DNA of 64,000 nt from Rubeoparvulum massiliense (GTDB lineage: Bacteria > Bacillota > Bacilli > Rubeoparvulales > Rubeoparvulaceae), in contig NZ_CVPE01000005.1 in NCBI RefSeq assembly GCF_001049895.1, positions 434,001-498,000 of the forward strand. The letters run 5' to 3'. Below the pieces are notes generated by a model. The model was given only the letters and a program-made list of their open reading frames with translations, had not been told where the DNA came from and searched no databases. The position numbers and the translations under genes were made by a program. Positions 16,688 through 62,671 of this stretch are shown here, piece after piece; position 1 is the stretch's first letter, and each line of letters starts with the position of its first letter.

Positions 16688-17119
16688 TTAGACATCTTCA
16701 AGGGGAGCGACAGTAAACTTCCCATATTTAACCCCTTTAAGACTTATAATCTGTTCACTGAAAGCCCGTAGGCTACCTGCCTTTCCCTTGACTACAATGA
16801 GTTCAAGGCAATTGTGATGATTGAGATGAAAATGAGTGGTGGCAAGAATCGTATCATGCATCTCATGTTGAACTGTAGTTAGCTCCTCCATAATATCGGA
16901 TTGATGGTGATCATAGAAGAGCAGGATACTACCTGCTACCATCTGTTCATCCTCTTCCCATGTCTGCTTGACCAAGGCTTGACGAACCAGATCACGCACT
17001 GCTTCAGAACGATTCTCATATCCCTGACGCTTAATTAATTGATCAAAATTACTTAAGAGCTTCTCATCCATGGAGACGCCAAAGCGTTTTAGATTGGTCT
17101 CCTTCTCTTTCTCCTTCAT
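16688..17119 (-). CDS. nikR: NikR-type nickel-responsive ribbon-helix-helix regulator
   Basis: Metal-sensing repressor of 143 residues. The N-terminal ribbon-helix-helix (about 8-50) includes KRFGVSMDEKLL and NRSEAVRDLVRQAL. The C-terminal ACT-like domain has His85, His96, His98 and Cys104 in the spacing of the four high-affinity nickel ligands of E. coli NikR (His76, His87, His89, Cys95). An ATG four codons earlier and a longer frame exist, but the ATG at 17119 has AAGGGGG nine bases upstream. It follows the HD-domain gene by five bases. No nickel transporter or hydrogenase/urease gene is in view, so its targets lie elsewhere. Confidence 0.9.
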   Translation of the reverse strand: MKEKEKETNLKRFGVSMDEKLLSNFDQLIKRQGYENRSEAVRDLVRQALVKQTWEEDEQMVAGSILLFYDHHQSDIMEELTTVQHEMHDTILATTHFHLNHHNCLELIVVKGKAGSLRAFSEQIISLKGVKYGKFTVAPLEDV

Positions 17120-17124
17120 GAAGT

Positions 17125-18405
17125 TCATCCCCCTTCGCGTTGGTTGCCATAGTAAATCGTATGTACTGCTTGTCGGCACTCCTCTGGGACAAATAAGGTG
17201 GTACCTCCCCGTGGATGGGAGATCGCACGGATGGTATCCGATTGACGAGAGATTTCTACGATCTCTCCATACTGATTGGTGGTGAAGATGGTGTTATGCT
17301 TCCATCCCCCCTCCTCTCCAGCAATATAATAGTCATAGGCAATATTACTAGACTGGTCAAAGAGCAGATAGTATTCTGGATCATAACCATATTGATGAAT
17401 CAGCCTGTTCACTTCCAATGTGGCCGTAGGATTATAATCGGAAGGTAGCTGAACTGGCTTCAATAAACGGCGGTGAAGTATACGATCAGCCATATCGGCT
17501 AAAATGGGATCTGAATGGTTCGTAAAATCCTTTAATGCCACATAGATATCCGTATCATCTAAGGCGAGGTACTCATTCACTGTTACATTCCCCGTTAAAA
17601 ATGGGATAAACCGTGAAGAAACATCCTGATGCTCGCGAAGCTGCCCTTCTCGATAAAGGTGTTGGGCCCGCTTCCAGATCGATTTCAACATGCATTCAAG
17701 GCCACGCGTAGTTCGGTGTAGGTAGACCTGCCAGTACATATTATAACGAGCCATTAAATAAGCCTCTGCAGTGGATAGCCCTTTCCGAGCTACGACCAAC
17801 TCGTCATGATGAAAGCTCAGCATCTCAATGAGCCGCTCATAATCAAATCGTCCATACATGGCTCCCGTAAAGAGAGAATCACGCATTAAGTAATCCATCC
17901 GATCCGCATCAATTTGACCTGAGATTAACATCTCCACACGCTTCATCGAGGATGTGCCTGCTAGGATGGCGGAGACCTGCTCTGGTAGTTGGGGATCAAA
18001 TTGACGTAATGCTCCACTTAATTCGGGATCCTCTTGAATGATCCGCATGGACCACTGCTCATGGCGACCATACTCACCAAGGAGTCCTTCTAGGGTATGG
18101 GAAAGCGGTCCATGTCCGATATCATGCAGCAAGGCTGCACAACATCCAGCAAGGATCTCTTCATCATTGAATGGCTGCCCAATCTCAGCGAAGTGATCCG
18201 CTAGCTTATTAAAGAGATGAAATACTCCCAACGAATGACCAAAACGCGTATGTTCCCCACCATGGTATGTAATATAAGAAGTTCCAAGCTGGGAAAGGCG
18301 ACGTAACCGTTGAAAAGCATACGTATCAATGATGGCTAAAAAGTCTCGATCTACACGGATAAAGCCGTGTACTGGATCGCGAAAGAGCTTATAAGGCCGA
18401 TTCAT
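17125..18405 (-). CDS. HD domain phosphohydrolase (YwfO-like, dNTPase-related)
   Basis: A 426-residue HD-superfamily metal-dependent phosphohydrolase. The N-terminal DPVHGFIRV signature, HTRFGHSLGV, and LLHDIGHGPLSHTLE (H...HD...D metal ligands) are all present. It matches the Bacillus YwfO group, related to deoxynucleotide triphosphohydrolases; the physiological substrate is not fixed. The frame opens at 18411, but the second ATG at 18405 is better spaced from the GGAGG site. It is followed five bases later by the nikR-like gene, a probable two-gene unit. Confidence 0.88.
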   Translation of the reverse strand: MNRPYKLFRDPVHGFIRVDRDFLAIIDTYAFQRLRRLSQLGTSYITYHGGEHTRFGHSLGVFHLFNKLADHFAEIGQPFNDEEILAGCCAALLHDIGHGPLSHTLEGLLGEYGRHEQWSMRIIQEDPELSGALRQFDPQLPEQVSAILAGTSSMKRVEMLISGQIDADRMDYLMRDSLFTGAMYGRFDYERLIEMLSFHHDELVVARKGLSTAEAYLMARYNMYWQVYLHRTTRGLECMLKSIWKRAQHLYREGQLREHQDVSSRFIPFLTGNVTVNEYLALDDTDIYVALKDFTNHSDPILADMADRILHRRLLKPVQLPSDYNPTATLEVNRLIHQYGYDPEYYLLFDQSSNIAYDYYIAGEEGGWKHNTIFTTNQYGEIVEISRQSDTIRAISHPRGGTTLFVPEECRQAVHTIYYGNQREGG

Positions 18406-33125: not shown

Positions 33126-33141
33126 TGTGATGAATTTCACA
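33126..33141. promoter_or_regulatory. FNR/CRP-type box of the first dcu gene
   Basis: TGTGA, six bases, TCACA: a perfect palindrome of the Fnr/CRP type. A TATGAT -10 lies at 33162-33167, giving a start near 33175, so the box is centred at about -41.5, the classic class II activator position. Anaerobic activation by Fnr is the likely reading. Confidence 0.85.
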
Positions 33142-33213
33142 CTTTCCAATGCTAAATATTGTATGATACTGGATGTGCAAGGGGACAATTTATGCAAATT
33201 TGGGGGTGTACTT

Positions 33214-34545
33214 ATGATCTGGCTTCAGTTTTTAGTCGTCCTTATCTTTATTTTCTGGGGGGCTCGACTTGGTGGTGTCGGCCTTGGTGTTATGGGTGGA
33301 TTTGGTCTTGCTGTTTTGGTCTTTGCATTCGGTCTTCAACCAACATCACCACCTATTGATGTTATCCTAATGATTTTAGCTGTAGTAACTGCTGCTGGTG
33401 CAATGCATGCAGCTGGTGGTCTTGATTACTTGGTCTACCTTGCCGAAAAAATGTTACGTAAAAATCCCTCTCGTATCACCTTCATGGGACCTATTGTAAC
33501 ATACCTATTCACATTCTTTGCAGGTACAGGTCACGTTGCTTACTCCGTACTTCCTGTTATTGCTGAGGTAGCTCGTGAATCTGGTGTTCGTCCAGAACGA
33601 CCCATGGGGATTGCAGTCATTGCTTCTCAACAATCCATCACCGCTTGCCCGATCTCCGCTGCAACGGTTGCACTACTCGGATTGTTCAGTACAGCTGGTT
33701 ATGATATCACATTGATGGATATCATGATTGTTACTGTTCCAGCTACCTTTATCGGTTGTATGATTGCAGCCTTCATCTCCTCTAAAACAGGTGTTGAATT
33801 GGCAGATGACCCTGAATATCAACGTCGGGTACGTGAAGGCTTAGTTGAACCAAGCGGTGTAGCATCTGGTGTGAAGAGAGAATACAACATTACCACTGCT
33901 GCAAAAATCTCTGTTCTTTTCTTCCTATTAGGTGCAGTTCTCGTCGTTCTGCTCGGTAGTATTGAAACATTACGTCCAGCATGGGAAATCGATGGTCAAT
34001 TAAAGCGTATGAACATGCCGAATACCATTGAAATCACCATGTTAACCGTCGCTGCACTCATTATGGTTACTGCTAAGACCAAAGTTGAAAAGGTTATTAA
34101 CAATGAAGTGTTCTTAGCAGGTGCTACAGCTGTTATCGGTATCTTCGGGATCGCTTGGATGGGTGATACCTTCTTCCAAAACAATATCGAAACCATTAAC
34201 AATGCTATTCAAGATGTTGTTTTGGCTCAACCATGGACATTCGCAATCGCACTCTTCTTCCTCTCTGTATTACTTTACAGCCAGGCTGCAACAGTTCGTG
34301 CGCTAATGCCATTAGGTATCTCTCTGGGAATTCCAGCACCATACCTAATTGCAATGTTCCCATCTGTTAACGGTTACTTCTTCATCCCAACTTATGGTAC
34401 TATTATTGCTGCTTTGAACTTTGACCGTACAGGTACTACTCATATTGGTAAGTACTTGTTCAATCACAGTTTCATGGTTCCAGGTTTAGTGGCAACCATT
34501 AGCGCTGTTGCAATTGGTTTTGGTCTTGCTGCTATCCTTTTATAA
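33214..34545 (+). CDS. Anaerobic C4-dicarboxylate transporter, Dcu family (copy 1)
   Basis: Inner membrane C4-dicarboxylate antiporter or uptake carrier, 443 residues from the chosen start, with about ten to twelve hydrophobic helices and the DcuA/DcuB motifs FFAGTGHVAYSVLPVIAEVA and FDRTGTTHIGKYLFNHSFM. Such carriers exchange fumarate, malate or aspartate for succinate during anaerobic growth. A frame opens at 33127, but the ATG at 33214 has GGGGGTG and matches the second copy. DcuA versus DcuB function cannot be told by eye. Codon use is unusually even and G-poor, suggesting high expression. Confidence 0.92.
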   Translation: MIWLQFLVVLIFIFWGARLGGVGLGVMGGFGLAVLVFAFGLQPTSPPIDVILMILAVVTAAGAMHAAGGLDYLVYLAEKMLRKNPSRITFMGPIVTYLFTFFAGTGHVAYSVLPVIAEVARESGVRPERPMGIAVIASQQSITACPISAATVALLGLFSTAGYDITLMDIMIVTVPATFIGCMIAAFISSKTGVELADDPEYQRRVREGLVEPSGVASGVKREYNITTAAKISVLFFLLGAVLVVLLGSIETLRPAWEIDGQLKRMNMPNTIEITMLTVAALIMVTAKTKVEKVINNEVFLAGATAVIGIFGIAWMGDTFFQNNIETINNAIQDVVLAQPWTFAIALFFLSVLLYSQAATVRALMPLGISLGIPAPYLIAMFPSVNGYFFIPTYGTIIAALNFDRTGTTHIGKYLFNHSFMVPGLVATISAVAIGFGLAAILL

Positions 34546-34845: not shown

Positions 34846-36177
34846 ATGATTTGGCTTGAGTTTCTAGTCGTCCTTATCTTTATTTTCTGGGGAGCTCGAC
34901 TTGGTGGAGTCGGTCTCGGTGTAATGGGCGGATTTGGTCTCGCCGTACTCGTCTTTGCTTTTGGTCTACAACCAACATCTCCACCTATTGATGTAATCCT
35001 AATGATCTTAGCTGTAGTAACCGCTGCAGGCGCAATGCACGCAGCCGGTGGTCTTGATTACTTGGTCTACCTTGCTGAAAAAATGTTACGTAAAAATCCC
35101 TCTCGCATTACCTTCATGGGACCTATTGTTACTTATTTATTTACCTTCTTTGCAGGTACAGGTCACGTTGCTTACTCCGTACTTCCTGTTATTGCAGAAG
35201 TAGCTCGTGAATCTGGTGTTCGTCCAGAACGACCCATGGGGATCTCAGTAATCGCTTCACAGCAATCCATCACCGCTTGTCCTATTTCCGCTGCAACCGT
35301 AGCATTATTAGGATTGTTCAGTACCGCAGGCTTCACTGTTGACCTGATGGACATCATGATGATCTGTGTACCTTCCACATTTATCGGTTGTATGATTGCC
35401 GCACTTATCTCTGCTCGTACTGGTGTAGAACTTGATGATGACCCTGAATTCCAAAAACGGGTTCGCGAGGGTTTAGTTGAACCAAGTGGTGTAACATCTG
35501 GTGTTAAGAAAGAATACAACATCACTGGAGCTGCTAAAATCTCTGTTCTTCTCTTCTTAATCGGCGCACTTCTTGTTGTAATCTTAGGTAGTGTTGAATC
35601 CTTACGTCCTGCTTGGGAAGTTGAAGGTGTCATGAAGCCGATGAGCATGCCTAATACCATTGAAATTGTAATGCTAACCATTGCAGCATTAATCATGGTA
35701 TTAAGTAAAACCAAAGTAGAAAAAGTAATTAACAACGAAGTGTTTATTGCAGGTGCTACTGCCGTTATCGGTATCTTCGGGATCGCTTGGATGGGTGATA
35801 CCTTCTTCCAAAACAACATTGAGACCATTAATGGCGCAATTCAAGATGTTGTATTAGCACAACCATGGACATTTGCTATTGCACTCTTCTTCCTATCTGT
35901 ATTGCTCTACAGTCAGGCTGCAACGGTTCGTGCATTAATGCCATTAGGTATCTCTCTTGGTATCAGCCCTGCATTCCTAATTGCAATGTTCCCAGCAGTT
36001 AATGGTTACTTCTTCATTCCAACCTATGGTACCATTATCGCAGCATTGAACTTTGACCGTACAGGTACTACTCATATCGGTAAATACCTCTTCAATCACA
36101 GCTTCATGGTTCCAGGTATCGTGGCAACCATTATCGCTGTAGCCGTAGGCTTTGGTTTATCTGCAGTACTTTTATAA
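34846..36177 (+). CDS. Anaerobic C4-dicarboxylate transporter, Dcu family (copy 2)
   Basis: Second 443-residue Dcu carrier, roughly nine residues in ten identical to copy 1 by eye. The first 180 residues and the last 130 are nearly the same; differences gather around 190-290. Silent differences are spread along the genes, so the duplication is not recent, yet the protein has been kept. It has its own FNR-type box, promoter, GGAGGTG site and terminator, so the copies can be expressed separately. Different substrate preference or expression level is possible but not shown. Confidence 0.92.
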   Translation: MIWLEFLVVLIFIFWGARLGGVGLGVMGGFGLAVLVFAFGLQPTSPPIDVILMILAVVTAAGAMHAAGGLDYLVYLAEKMLRKNPSRITFMGPIVTYLFTFFAGTGHVAYSVLPVIAEVARESGVRPERPMGISVIASQQSITACPISAATVALLGLFSTAGFTVDLMDIMMICVPSTFIGCMIAALISARTGVELDDDPEFQKRVREGLVEPSGVTSGVKKEYNITGAAKISVLLFLIGALLVVILGSVESLRPAWEVEGVMKPMSMPNTIEIVMLTIAALIMVLSKTKVEKVINNEVFIAGATAVIGIFGIAWMGDTFFQNNIETINGAIQDVVLAQPWTFAIALFFLSVLLYSQAATVRALMPLGISLGISPAFLIAMFPAVNGYFFIPTYGTIIAALNFDRTGTTHIGKYLFNHSFMVPGIVATIIAVAVGFGLSAVLL

Positions 36178-36737: not shown

Positions 36738-37610
36738 TTATTGTGGATTAAGCTTTGGTTCTACGTGGATATTGACACTGGTCTGTGGAAGTGACCCGGT
36801 AATCTCCATTTCGATTTGATCACAGATCTCATGGGATTGGGATACGGTAATATCTGAGGCCATTTCCAAGTGAAAATCTACGTATCGTGCACTCCCTGCT
36901 TTTCGTGTCTTCAAATCATGGTACGTGACTTGATGCAACTGCTCATATTTCTCCAATACTTCTTTAATCACAGCTTCCTCAGCATCGGGGAGCTTGGCAT
37001 CTAATAATGGACTAAATGCAGTAGAGACTAATTCATAAGCTTCCTTCACGATAAGCCCTGCTACCAAGATAGCTACCACAGGGTCTAACCAATAAAGGCC
37101 TGTAATCTTCATCAAGACTAAGCCAATAGCAACCCCAGCCGAGGTGTATACATCGGTCTTCAAATGAAGGGCATCTGCTTCTAAAGCGATGGAATCCTCC
37201 CGCTTCGCTACCCGATAAAGGATACTGGAGATAAAAAAGTTCACAATGGCCGAAACAGCCATCACAGTGATTGCAAGATATTCCTGTTGCAGTGGTTCTG
37301 GGTGAAGCAACTTGCCTACAGCTTCTTTTATAATTAATGCTGCTGCAATAAAAATGAGCAACCCTTCGATGACACCAGAGATATTCTCCATCTTACCATG
37401 GCCATAGGGATGCTTCTTATCTGCAGGACGATAGGCATACGTCACAGAGAATAATGCAATAAAGGATGCCAAAAGATCCATGGCTGAGTGAATCGCTTCT
37501 GAAAGAATACTGACTGAACCGCTCAGAAAGCCTGCTATCGCTTTTATTGTAATTAGGAATGAATTCGAGATAACAGATAGCAACGCAACTTTAGAACGGA
37601 TATTGGCCAT
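36738..37610 (-). CDS. Cation diffusion facilitator metal exporter
   Basis: Divalent cation/proton antiporter of 290 residues with six membrane helices and a cytosolic C-terminal dimerisation domain. Metal-site motifs are visible: SEAIHSAMDLLASF (helix 2), HPYGHGKMENISG, and ALEADALHLKTDVYTS (helix 5), with His and Asp ligands. The frame reads back to 37862, but the ATG at 37610 follows GGGGGAAAG and gives the usual CDF length. Zn, Co, Ni, Fe or Mn are all possible cargoes; the leader RNA upstream hints at Ni/Co. Confidence 0.92.
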   Translation of the reverse strand: MANIRSKVALLSVISNSFLITIKAIAGFLSGSVSILSEAIHSAMDLLASFIALFSVTYAYRPADKKHPYGHGKMENISGVIEGLLIFIAAALIIKEAVGKLLHPEPLQQEYLAITVMAVSAIVNFFISSILYRVAKREDSIALEADALHLKTDVYTSAGVAIGLVLMKITGLYWLDPVVAILVAGLIVKEAYELVSTAFSPLLDAKLPDAEEAVIKEVLEKYEQLHQVTYHDLKTRKAGSARYVDFHLEMASDITVSQSHEICDQIEMEITGSLPQTSVNIHVEPKLNPQ

Positions 37611-37670: not shown

Positions 37671-37782
37671 AAAAGCCTGTGAGACTGTTTGGAGTCCCAC
37701 AGGCTTAGTATTCCACAAAATCCTGTTGCCAATTTTGGCCCGATATCCATGAAGGATATCTGTCTCAAAAAGGAGTAAATTT
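37671..37782 (-). promoter_or_regulatory. Structured leader of the CDF gene: candidate NiCo-like riboswitch with terminator
   Basis: Read leftwards, P1 (37762-37767 with 37680-37685) encloses three hairpins: P2 GATATCC/GGATATC, P3 GCCA/TGGC and P4 ACAGG/CCTGT, that is a four-way junction. A terminator (arms 37693-37706 and 37673-37686, with TTTT after) shares strands with P1 and P4, so aptamer and terminator exclude each other. This is the layout of the NiCo (czcD) riboswitch, which controls CDF exporters; conserved bases were not checked against a model. Confidence 0.55.
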
Positions 37783-37788
37783 ACTCCT
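37771..37788. promoter_or_regulatory. Perfect 18-bp palindrome at the CDF start site
   Basis: AGGAGTAAATTTACTCCT begins directly after the -10 box and spans the start site, as a repressor operator would. As RNA in transcripts from glyQS it forms a hairpin followed by five T, so it may also end that gene. Confidence 0.6.
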
Positions 37789-37817
37789 ATTCTACAAGCT
37801 AAACTTAACATTGTCAA
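37789..37817 (-). promoter_or_regulatory. Sigma-A promoter of the CDF gene
   Basis: TTGACA, 17 bases, TAGAAT on the minus strand; expected start near 37782, about 170 bases before the CDF start codon. Confidence 0.82.
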
Positions 37818-37880: not shown

Positions 37881-39263
37881 CTAAAAAGTTATTTTTTCAT
37901 CGAGGAATGCCTTCACATCTGCGATGGGGAGACGCACCTGTTCCATGGTATCGCGATTGCGGATGGTTACCTGCCGATCCTCTTCTGAATCGAAGTCATA
38001 GGTAATGCAGAAGGGTGTACCAATTTCATCCTGACGGCGATAGCGCTTCCCAATGGAGCCTGTCTCATCAAAGTCCACCATAAAGTGCTTTGCTAGTTCT
38101 CGATATACCTCAAGTGCACCATCAGACAGTTTCTTCGAGAGTGGGAGCACTGCAGCTTTATAAGGAGCAAGGGCAGGATGAAAATGTAGAACATTCCGTG
38201 TTGTTCCGTCCTCCAAACTTTCTTCCTCATATGCATTGATCAAGAAAGCTAAGGTGACCCGATCCGCACCAAGGGATGGCTCAATACAATATGGAACATA
38301 CTTCTCGTTCGTCTCTGGATCAAGGTAAGTAAAGTCATCACCGGAGAATTCCATATGACGACTCAAGTCGTAATTAGTACGAGAAGCAACACCCCATAAT
38401 TCTCCCCAGCCAAATGGGAAGAGGTATTCAAAGTCCGTTGTTGCATTGCTATAATGGGATAACTCCTCAGGAGAATGATCTCGCATCCGGAGACAATCCT
38501 CTTTCATACCAAGGGTTAATAGCCATGTATGAGCTTGTTCCTTCCAATATTTGAACCATTCCATCTCTTCTCCTGGCTTACAGAAGAATTCTAGTTCCAT
38601 CTGTTCAAACTCCCGTGTGCGGAATGTAAAGTTACCTGGTGTAATCTCATTACGGAAGCTCTTCCCGATCTGCGCGATTCCAAAGGGGAGCTTCTTCCGC
38701 ATGGTACGTTGTACATTCTTAAAGTTAACAAAGATCCCTTGTGCTGTTTCAGGACGAAGGTAAATCTGATTGGTGCTAGACTCTGTAACACCTTGGAAGG
38801 TTTTGAACATTAAGTTGAACTGCCGAATAGGGGTGAAATTATGGGCACCACATTCTGGGCAGGCAATTTCATGCTCTTCAATCAATGCTGCCATCTGTTC
38901 AAAGGAAAGACCATCCACGATCATCTCAATACCCTTAGCTTGTAGTGCTTCTTCAATGAGCTTATCTGCACGATGCCGGGCTTTACAAGCCTTACAGTCG
39001 ATCATAGGATCATTGAAGTTTCCTAAGTGTCCAGATGCTTCCCATGTACGAGGATTCATTAAGATGGCAGCGTCCAAGCCCACATTATAGGGAGATTCTT
39101 GGACGAATTTTTTCCACCATGCCCGTTTTACATTATTCTTCAGTTCTACGCCAAGGGGACCGTAATCCCATGTATTCGCCAATCCTCCATAAATCTCTGA
39201 TCCAGGGAAGATAAAGCCTCGATGCTTTGCTAATGCAACAATTTGCTCCATTGTAACGTTCAT
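37881..39263 (-). CDS. glyQS: Glycyl-tRNA synthetase, homodimeric class II type
   Basis: Charges tRNA-Gly. The 460-residue single-chain enzyme is the alpha-2 type, unlike the separate glyQ and glyS subunits of B. subtilis. It opens with the typical [23 protein letters not shown] block. Zinc-ligand pairs CKACKARH and CPECGAHNF are visible, as are class II motif 2 ([14 protein letters not shown]) and motif 3 ([10 protein letters not shown]). The AAAGGAG site is a little far from the ATG. A glycine T-box controls it. Confidence 0.95.
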
Positions 39264-39293: not shown

Positions 39294-39520
39294 AAAAAAC
39301 TCTCGTCGCTAGGCAATTAAGCTGCCTAGGGACGAGAGTTAACTCCCGCGGTTCCACCCTAGTTGATGCACCAAATTGTGCATCCCCTTTCCATAAGGTA
39401 ACTCCAGAGTGCCTTTTCACAGAGATGCTGACTAGGCTTCCACCCTTCCTAGTTCGCTTCATGCAGCAGATCCTCTGTTACTATCCATCTTTCCTCGTTA
39501 CGGTAAAGAGTATTCAGTTG
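39294..39520 (-). ncRNA. Glycine T-box leader of glyQS
   Basis: The T-box AGGGTGGAACCGCG is at 39347-39360 and a strong terminator (39300-39338, six T at 39294-39299) follows. In Stem I the GGC triplet at 39411-39413 follows TGAAAA and precedes A, as in the B. subtilis glyQS specifier loop. The A in TGGAACC fits the U73 discriminator of tRNA-Gly. Together with the copper-amine-oxidase-like gene's promoter this fills the 39264-39737 gap. Confidence 0.94.
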
Positions 39521-45888: not shown

Positions 45889-46734
45889 GCTATGGATGGG
45901 CTGAATACGAAACTGCTCCTGTTGAGCAATGAACAAGGATGGTGGTTCTTTCATCACCGTTCCCTTTGCTAGTGGAATATTAATGTTGGTATGAATAGCT
46001 GCATTCTTCTCCTCTTCTGTGAGATACCCAAGCTGTTCCATCCGTTCTAGAACAACTTGCTGTCTTTGCTTTGCCTTTGCAAAATCCTTAATTGGCGAAT
46101 AGTGCTCTGGCGCCTTCGGTAATGCTGCAAGCATCGCCGCCTCACTCAAGGAGATCGTCTCCTTCGTTGGGTGATTCAATTGAACGGTCTTGTCAAAATA
46201 GAAGTTAGCGGCTGTTTCAATTCCATAAATACCATGGCCAAAATAAATCGTATTCAAATACATTTCTAATAATTCTTCTTTTGTATAGGATTGCTCTAAG
46301 TAGATGGCAATTGCCATCTCTTTTAATTTGCGATCGAATTCCTTATCCTGATTCAAGAAGAGGTTCCTTGCTAGCTGCATGGTGATGGTGCTACCTCCCT
46401 GAACCAAACTGCCCTGACGGACGTCTTGCCAGATGGCGCGACCAAGCCCCACCAGATCTACACCAGGATGAAGATCATAGCGATGATCCTCAATGGCAAC
46501 GAATGCATCACTGATGTAAAGTGGCATCTGTTCCATGTCTACATAGATACGATGATCTAGGTGGGAGGTACCCTCCCGTTGGGCCACCTTCATCGCGGTC
46601 TCGTATTGGGCTAATCGATCATAATCAACCAGCATTCCTCCGATTGTGGACATAGAACAAAAAAGAAGGATAGAAAGGATCAAAATCACTGCTACACCTC
46701 TTCGTATCCTTCGCCCCCATTCTACCTTCACCAT
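45877..46734 (-). CDS. Monofunctional peptidoglycan glycosyltransferase (GT51)
   Basis: Membrane-anchored lipid II polymerase of 285 residues. One N-terminal helix (about 9-33) is followed by a GT51 domain with AIEDHRYDLHPGVD (catalytic Glu), QGGSTITMQLARNLFL, and YLEQSYTKEELLEMYLNTIYFG. There is no transpeptidase domain, so it is monofunctional or a C-terminally short PBP1 relative; the tail after about 235 is the linker normally seen in class A PBPs. A GTG at 46758 is in frame, but the ATG at 46734 is nine bases after AAAGGGG. Confidence 0.9.
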   Translation of the reverse strand: MVKVEWGRRIRRGVAVILILSILLFCSMSTIGGMLVDYDRLAQYETAMKVAQREGTSHLDHRIYVDMEQMPLYISDAFVAIEDHRYDLHPGVDLVGLGRAIWQDVRQGSLVQGGSTITMQLARNLFLNQDKEFDRKLKEMAIAIYLEQSYTKEELLEMYLNTIYFGHGIYGIETAANFYFDKTVQLNHPTKETISLSEAAMLAALPKAPEHYSPIKDFAKAKQRQQVVLERMEQLGYLTEEEKNAAIHTNINIPLAKGTVMKEPPSLFIAQQEQFRIQPIHSLTN

Positions 46735-49777: not shown

Positions 49778-50062
49778 AAATTAAACATTATAGACGATGA
49801 TGGAGAAAGAAGCATTGAAACGATCCTTTCAGCGAACTGGAAGCGGTGAGAGCCAGTAGGATACGCCAATGTGTATGTTCACTCACTAGTCTTTGCTCTC
49901 AAAGTGAACCGAGTAGGAGCAAAGGGTTGTCCCCCTTACGAGGACCCTTGTTTATCAAGACAAGCGTAAAGATATTCAACATTGCATTGATTTAGCATTG
50001 TTGAATCAAGTAGAGTGGTACCGTGAAGCAACTTCACCTCTATATAGAGGTGAAGTTTTTTT
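49778..50062 (+). ncRNA. T-box leader, predicted UUC (Phe) specifier, before an NSS transporter gene
   Basis: The T-box AGAGTGGTACCGTG is at 50012-50025, and the terminator stem ACTTCACCTC/GAGGTGAAGT (50031-50056) with seven T follows. Aligning Stem I with the glycine T-boxes places TTC at 49878-49880 in the specifier position, followed by A. The U in TGGUACC calls for an A73 discriminator, which tRNA-Phe has and bacterial tRNA-Trp (G73) does not. With its promoter it fills the 49666-50125 gap. Confidence 0.85.
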
Positions 50063-62422: not shown

Positions 62423-62606
62423 CGATAGGGCAGAGGCGCGAGGTTTATGAGTAGTTACCTTGAGGATGACAACGATGAGAGGTAAACAAAAGGATGCTTC
62501 GCCGAAGTGATCAGCACAGTCAAGATGTTGATTGCTGGGGTTATTCCGAATAGGAATAACACTGTCATTGTAAATCACCCCATTTACAATGGAGCACTAC
62601 TTATCG
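62423..62606 (+). ncRNA. Lysine riboswitch (L-box)
   Basis: Conserved blocks in order: GATAGGGCAGAGGCGCGA (P1/J), TTTATGAGTAG, GGATGCTTCGCCGAAG at 62492-62507, the ACTGTCA junction and GGAGCACTAC before the closing P1 strand CTTATCG. They match the lysC leader of Bacillus in order and spacing. P1 pairs 62423-62428 with 62600-62606. A terminator at 62672-62710 gives lysine-dependent shut-off. Confidence 0.93.
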
Positions 62607-62671
62607 AGTTTGGGTTATTTTTTCGAGCGATGAACCATTATTTTTATTGTGGTGAACTCATTCGAAGAACC

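Follow-up and report, generated by a model that had tools for sequence, protein, structure and literature searches.

We analysed a window of 64,000 nucleotides from the genome of Rubeoparvulum massiliense, in which a gene for a cation exporter of the CDF family follows the glycyl-tRNA synthetase gene. Read along the minus strand, the region ahead of the exporter presents a promoter, a perfect palindrome directly after it, an RNA element that matches the NiCo (czcD) riboswitch class, and a terminator (Table 1).

Table 1. Positions of the features at the exporter locus, and of NikR, within the 64 kb window
Feature	Position	Strand	Basis or description
NikR	16688-17179	minus	RHH_1 and NikR_C domains
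CDF family cation exporter, 290 aa	36738-37610	minus	PF01545 and PF16916; TIGR01297
Intrinsic terminator	37673-37706	minus	14-bp stem, 6-nt loop; -23.2 kcal/mol with flanks
NiCo (czcD) riboswitch aptamer, P1-P4 four-way junction	37690-37776	minus	RF02683 and independent covariance model
Perfect 18-bp palindrome AGGAGTAAATTTACTCCT	37771-37788	both	spans predicted start, -6 to +12
Exporter promoter	37789-37817	minus	consensus scan, 11/12 matches
glyS (glycyl-tRNA synthetase)	37881-39263	minus	ORF and translation; upstream of exporter, same strand

The exporter protein carried Cation_efflux and ZT_dimer domains and scored highest against the CDF superfamily model. A first-pass annotation had assigned the leader (37671-37817, minus strand) to a CDF exporter, and both the domains and TIGR01297 agree with that assignment; the gene context of the leader is directly supported. 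The start codon was placed at an ATG at 37610, preceded by a GGGGG ribosome-binding sequence, and a longer ORF was rejected as the exporter gene, its start lying upstream of the promoter. HxxxD motifs were found in both metal-site segments of this exporter and of all exporters compared, which does not settle the identity of the metal. The promoter consists of a -35 element (TTGACA, 37812-37817), a 17-nt spacer and a -10 element (TAGAAT, 37789-37794), from the consensus of which transcription is predicted to start at about 37782.

Two adjacent, near-identical genes for anaerobic C4-dicarboxylate transporters (Dcu) were observed at 33127-34545 and 34846-36177, both on the plus strand, and are apparently a tandem duplication. 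Other RNA elements in the window were a T-box leader of glyS (39325-39504, minus strand; 74.8 bits, E = 1.8e-16), which lay below the Rfam cut-off of 93 and was missed by the default search, a second T-box leader (49788-50044, plus strand; 102.7 bits), and a lysine riboswitch (62423-62607, plus strand; 120.9 bits).

Searches of Rfam at gathering thresholds did not pick up the element in the exporter leader, after which we used Rfam in E-value mode together with an independent covariance model. The covariance search against the Rfam NiCo family, which the first-pass annotation had proposed as a check, returned a match to RF02683 in a local search (E = 1.9e-4), but its 29.4 bits fell below the cut-off of 37. 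This score range is common to many other NiCo matches, and across the whole genome the leader was the sole match to RF02683 (E = 1.8e-4). The independent model was built from 34 other NiCo leaders, with the window excluded; within the 64 kb it matched the leader and nothing else (32.4 bits, E = 4.6e-9), model E-values being rough. Chance is a very poor explanation of the riboswitch match. Weak matches to MAT2A_C and IsrM were taken as chance, the IsrM match resting on the terminator hairpin.

An alignment of 95 rows (the window and 94 other NiCo leaders) was used to examine conservation and pairing. Positions in agreement in at least 90 of the 94 other leaders were considered near-invariant, and the window retained all 16 of these, including both GGG runs. 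Across the alignment 96% of cells were paired, with 416 double-sided changes observed versus 115 in shuffles. In P2 of the window, two pairs differed from the consensus on both sides with pairing kept (GAU/AUC for GGC/GCC). The covariance model placed a four-way junction of P1-P4 at the aptamer, as anticipated by the earlier description of P1 enclosing three hairpins, and every modelled pair forms apart from the outermost one of P1 in the Rfam version; an unconstrained fold of the aptamer did not yield the full P1. Membership in the NiCo class is thus directly supported by sequence and covariation. A review of the class assigns the coordination of two Co(II) ions to four highly conserved guanines (G46, G47, G87, and G88) and a supporting role at a third site to G45 (PMC7689651). 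The solved example given there is the riboswitch of an Erysipelotrichaceae bacterium (PDB 4RUM). We infer that the metal-coordinating guanines lie within the two GGG runs of the leader.

Close homologues of the exporter (L003, L005, L007, and L012) had NiCo aptamers that scored above the cut-off immediately ahead of their start codons, and the independent model identified NiCo aptamers in four more (L034, L053, L058, and L061). The sub-threshold Rfam score, taken alone, could indicate that the leader is no riboswitch at all, i.e., a plain terminator or attenuator that resembles one by chance. We regard this as extremely improbable, given the E-value under the independent model and the presence of the same RNA in the same place at homologous exporters. 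Of 398 genomes sampled across the phylum, 99 had NiCo matches, whereas a sample of 398 genomes from the class gave only 6.

Among the 104 NiCo leaders, 16 from at least 11 families (L083, L088-L095, L097-L099, L101, L103, L109, and L112) shared a conserved box, CUCUUUGCACUGCAU, between promoter and aptamer; it was absent from the leader in the window. The box can pair with ACAGUACAAA, which Rfam treats as unpaired sequence 5' of P1, to form a stem with a C-A mismatch and, in some leaders, an extra apical hairpin. By eye, a paired change from G-C to A-U was seen in the stem of L109. The stem may be a 5' extension of this riboswitch class not described before.

The terminator at the end of the leader is followed by a T-rich tract that runs down to about 37664. 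Its 5' arm is composed of the P4 3' strand, the J4/1 guanines, and most of the P1 3' strand, confirming the earlier claim that P1 and P4 strands are reused by an intrinsic terminator, and the same overlapping arrangement was observed in other NiCo leaders. This overlap of strands is directly supported. Because these strands are shared, aptamer and terminator are mutually exclusive. Metal binding in the NiCo class favors the aptamer, so that transcription continues into the downstream gene (PMC7689651). For this leader we infer metal binding and read-through in cells. RNA polymerase would initiate near 37782 and transcribe the aptamer. At low metal, the P4, J4/1, and P1 3' strands would be captured by the 14-bp terminator stem, and the transcript would stop before the CDF gene. 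At high metal, e.g., Co(II), Ni(II), or Fe(II), the ion would bind both GGG runs of the junction and lock P1 and P4, the terminator would be blocked, and the exporter would be made. For the class, Co and Ni were proposed first as the metals and iron was argued for in later work; the metal sensed by this leader, whether Co, Ni, or Fe, is uncertain.

Taken together, we consider it highly probable that the leader of the exporter gene belongs to the NiCo (czcD) riboswitch class and acts as a transcriptional ON switch, with the start-site palindrome most likely outside the sensor. The first-pass annotation had spoken of a leader resembling a NiCo riboswitch, and the independent model, the near-invariant residues, the CDF homologues, and the terminator support a stronger statement than resemblance.

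The leader nonetheless departs from its class. With RF02683 and 4RUM it shares the four-way junction, the GGG runs, the near-invariant residues, a terminator overlapping P4 and P1, and a CDF exporter downstream, whereas it differs in its sub-cut-off score, a shorter P1 loop, a P2 with no internal loop, and the palindrome at the start site. The internal loop of P1 is one nucleotide short, having lost on its 5' strand the nucleotide that separates the conserved GA from the CA, and so lacks the two-by-one form of the class; this nucleotide was present in all 94 other leaders. No essential role is known for this feature. The internal loop of P2 was absent from the window and from four other aptamers. 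The low Rfam score is attributable to the missing nucleotide of P1 and the missing loop of P2, and these departures may alter affinity or metal preference.

Both losses, and the score below the Rfam cut-off, would also be expected of a decayed NiCo riboswitch that no longer functions. We consider decay quite improbable, since the overlapping terminator and each of the 16 near-invariant positions have been preserved and the P2 loop is also lacking in four other aptamers. Additionally, P2 has diverged without any loss of pairing, indicative of ongoing selection.

The palindrome was present as previously described, perfect over 18 bp from -6 to +12. Three perfect palindromes of at least 18 bp were found in the window, versus approximately 0.22 expected per window in a Markov-1 simulation. 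A second 18-bp palindrome, AGATGGCAATTGCCATCT, lies inside a coding gene (46302-46319, within a transglycosylase ORF), and the third is a 28-bp stem (50030-50057) that overlaps the plus-strand T-box leader. The palindrome at the start site is therefore only mildly beyond chance, and its place there is no more than suggestive. A search of the whole genome that allowed as many as 3 mismatches returned no second copy, and the half-site GGAGT-N6-ACTCC (up to 1 mismatch) was not enriched, with 58 matches per strand versus 121 for a reversed control. With up to 1 mismatch, the palindrome was absent from 397 other genomes of the class, and no perfect palindrome of at least 14 bp was found near the promoter in the 103 other NiCo leaders. 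The low expectation, the second palindrome inside a coding gene, and the lack of conservation are all compatible with a functionless chance feature beside a working riboswitch; its exact coincidence with the start site and the T run that immediately follows argue against chance, and we regard this explanation as rather unlikely.

The first-pass annotation had proposed that the palindrome is bound by a DNA-binding repressor, so that the exporter would be under dual control, i.e., a repressor at a palindromic operator would block initiation and the NiCo riboswitch would control elongation. Symmetry that is perfect through the center fits an operator, as does the position relative to the strong promoter (-6 to +12), and the genome encodes metal sensors of the NikR family, two of CsoR type, and several of ArsR type. 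However, the single genomic copy, half-sites below control frequency, and absence from the 397 genomes and 103 leaders all count against an operator. No regulator genes were found next to the palindrome, the neighboring genes not being regulators, and we know of no metal-sensor operator that it resembles. The NikR gene mentioned in the earlier description does exist, but nothing ties it to the exporter promoter; its neighbors encode a YwhD-family protein and an HD-domain protein, not a nickel transporter. The palindrome was rejected as a NikR site, being unlike the NikR half-sites known to us and about 21 kb from NikR.

The earlier view was that a repressor combined with a metal-sensing RNA would be unusual, but layered control by protein and riboswitch has a precedent in E. 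coli mntP, a metal exporter gene that MntR activates and whose Mn riboswitch acts on translation (PMC11647493). Both systems concern a metal exporter, and mntP is a model for dual control by protein and RNA; the leader RNA described here differs in acting on termination, and any protein regulator of this exporter is hypothetical. Dual control of this exporter is likewise hypothetical; the genome has candidate repressors, but none is linked to the palindrome. Overall, nothing beyond symmetry and position favors a repressor, which we judge a fairly unlikely explanation for the palindrome. True dual control, in which an aptamer whose P1 loop is shortened, perhaps with a changed metal preference or threshold, would share its promoter with a single-target repressor at the palindrome, appears distinctly unlikely.

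A weak terminator of glyS accounts for the palindrome no less well than an operator. On the minus strand, which is the transcribed strand, the palindrome forms a hairpin of -7.8 kcal/mol followed by TTTTGAGA (T4). It lies 113 nt past the glyS stop codon, and no other terminator-like hairpin was found in the first 150 nt beyond that gene. Because this hairpin and T run lie on the glyS strand and glyS has no other candidate after it, we tentatively favor the palindrome as a weak terminator, or an insulating hairpin, of the glyS transcript; we rank this above an operator and above chance, at somewhat short of even odds. The glyS transcript would run into the palindrome, inside which exporter transcription happens to start. 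A transcript from 37782 carries half of the palindrome and so cannot form the hairpin, and RNA made from the exporter promoter would be unaffected by it. It was accordingly rejected as a hairpin of the exporter transcript, such as the 5' hairpin of some NiCo leaders, given the predicted start inside the palindrome; formation of the hairpin in read-through RNA from glyS is possible.

The palindrome resembles the intrinsic terminators of this genome in lying beyond the end of a gene and in having T residues after its inverted repeat when the transcribed strand is read. In contrast to the clear terminators of the window (about -10 to -27 kcal/mol), its hairpin is weaker than most and overlaps the next promoter, and it has too few T residues for the terminator scan, which applies a five-T rule. 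As a terminator the hairpin is weak, and its distance from the glyS stop codon counts against such a role.

These results describe a real, somewhat divergent NiCo riboswitch, ordinary in kind, in an isolated lineage that is the sole representative of its order in the genome set. The loss of the P1 internal-loop nucleotide suggests that the NiCo class tolerates this change. Provided that metal sensing persists in the shortened aptamer, it would offer a natural variant with which to test the features that set selectivity for Co and Ni versus Fe.
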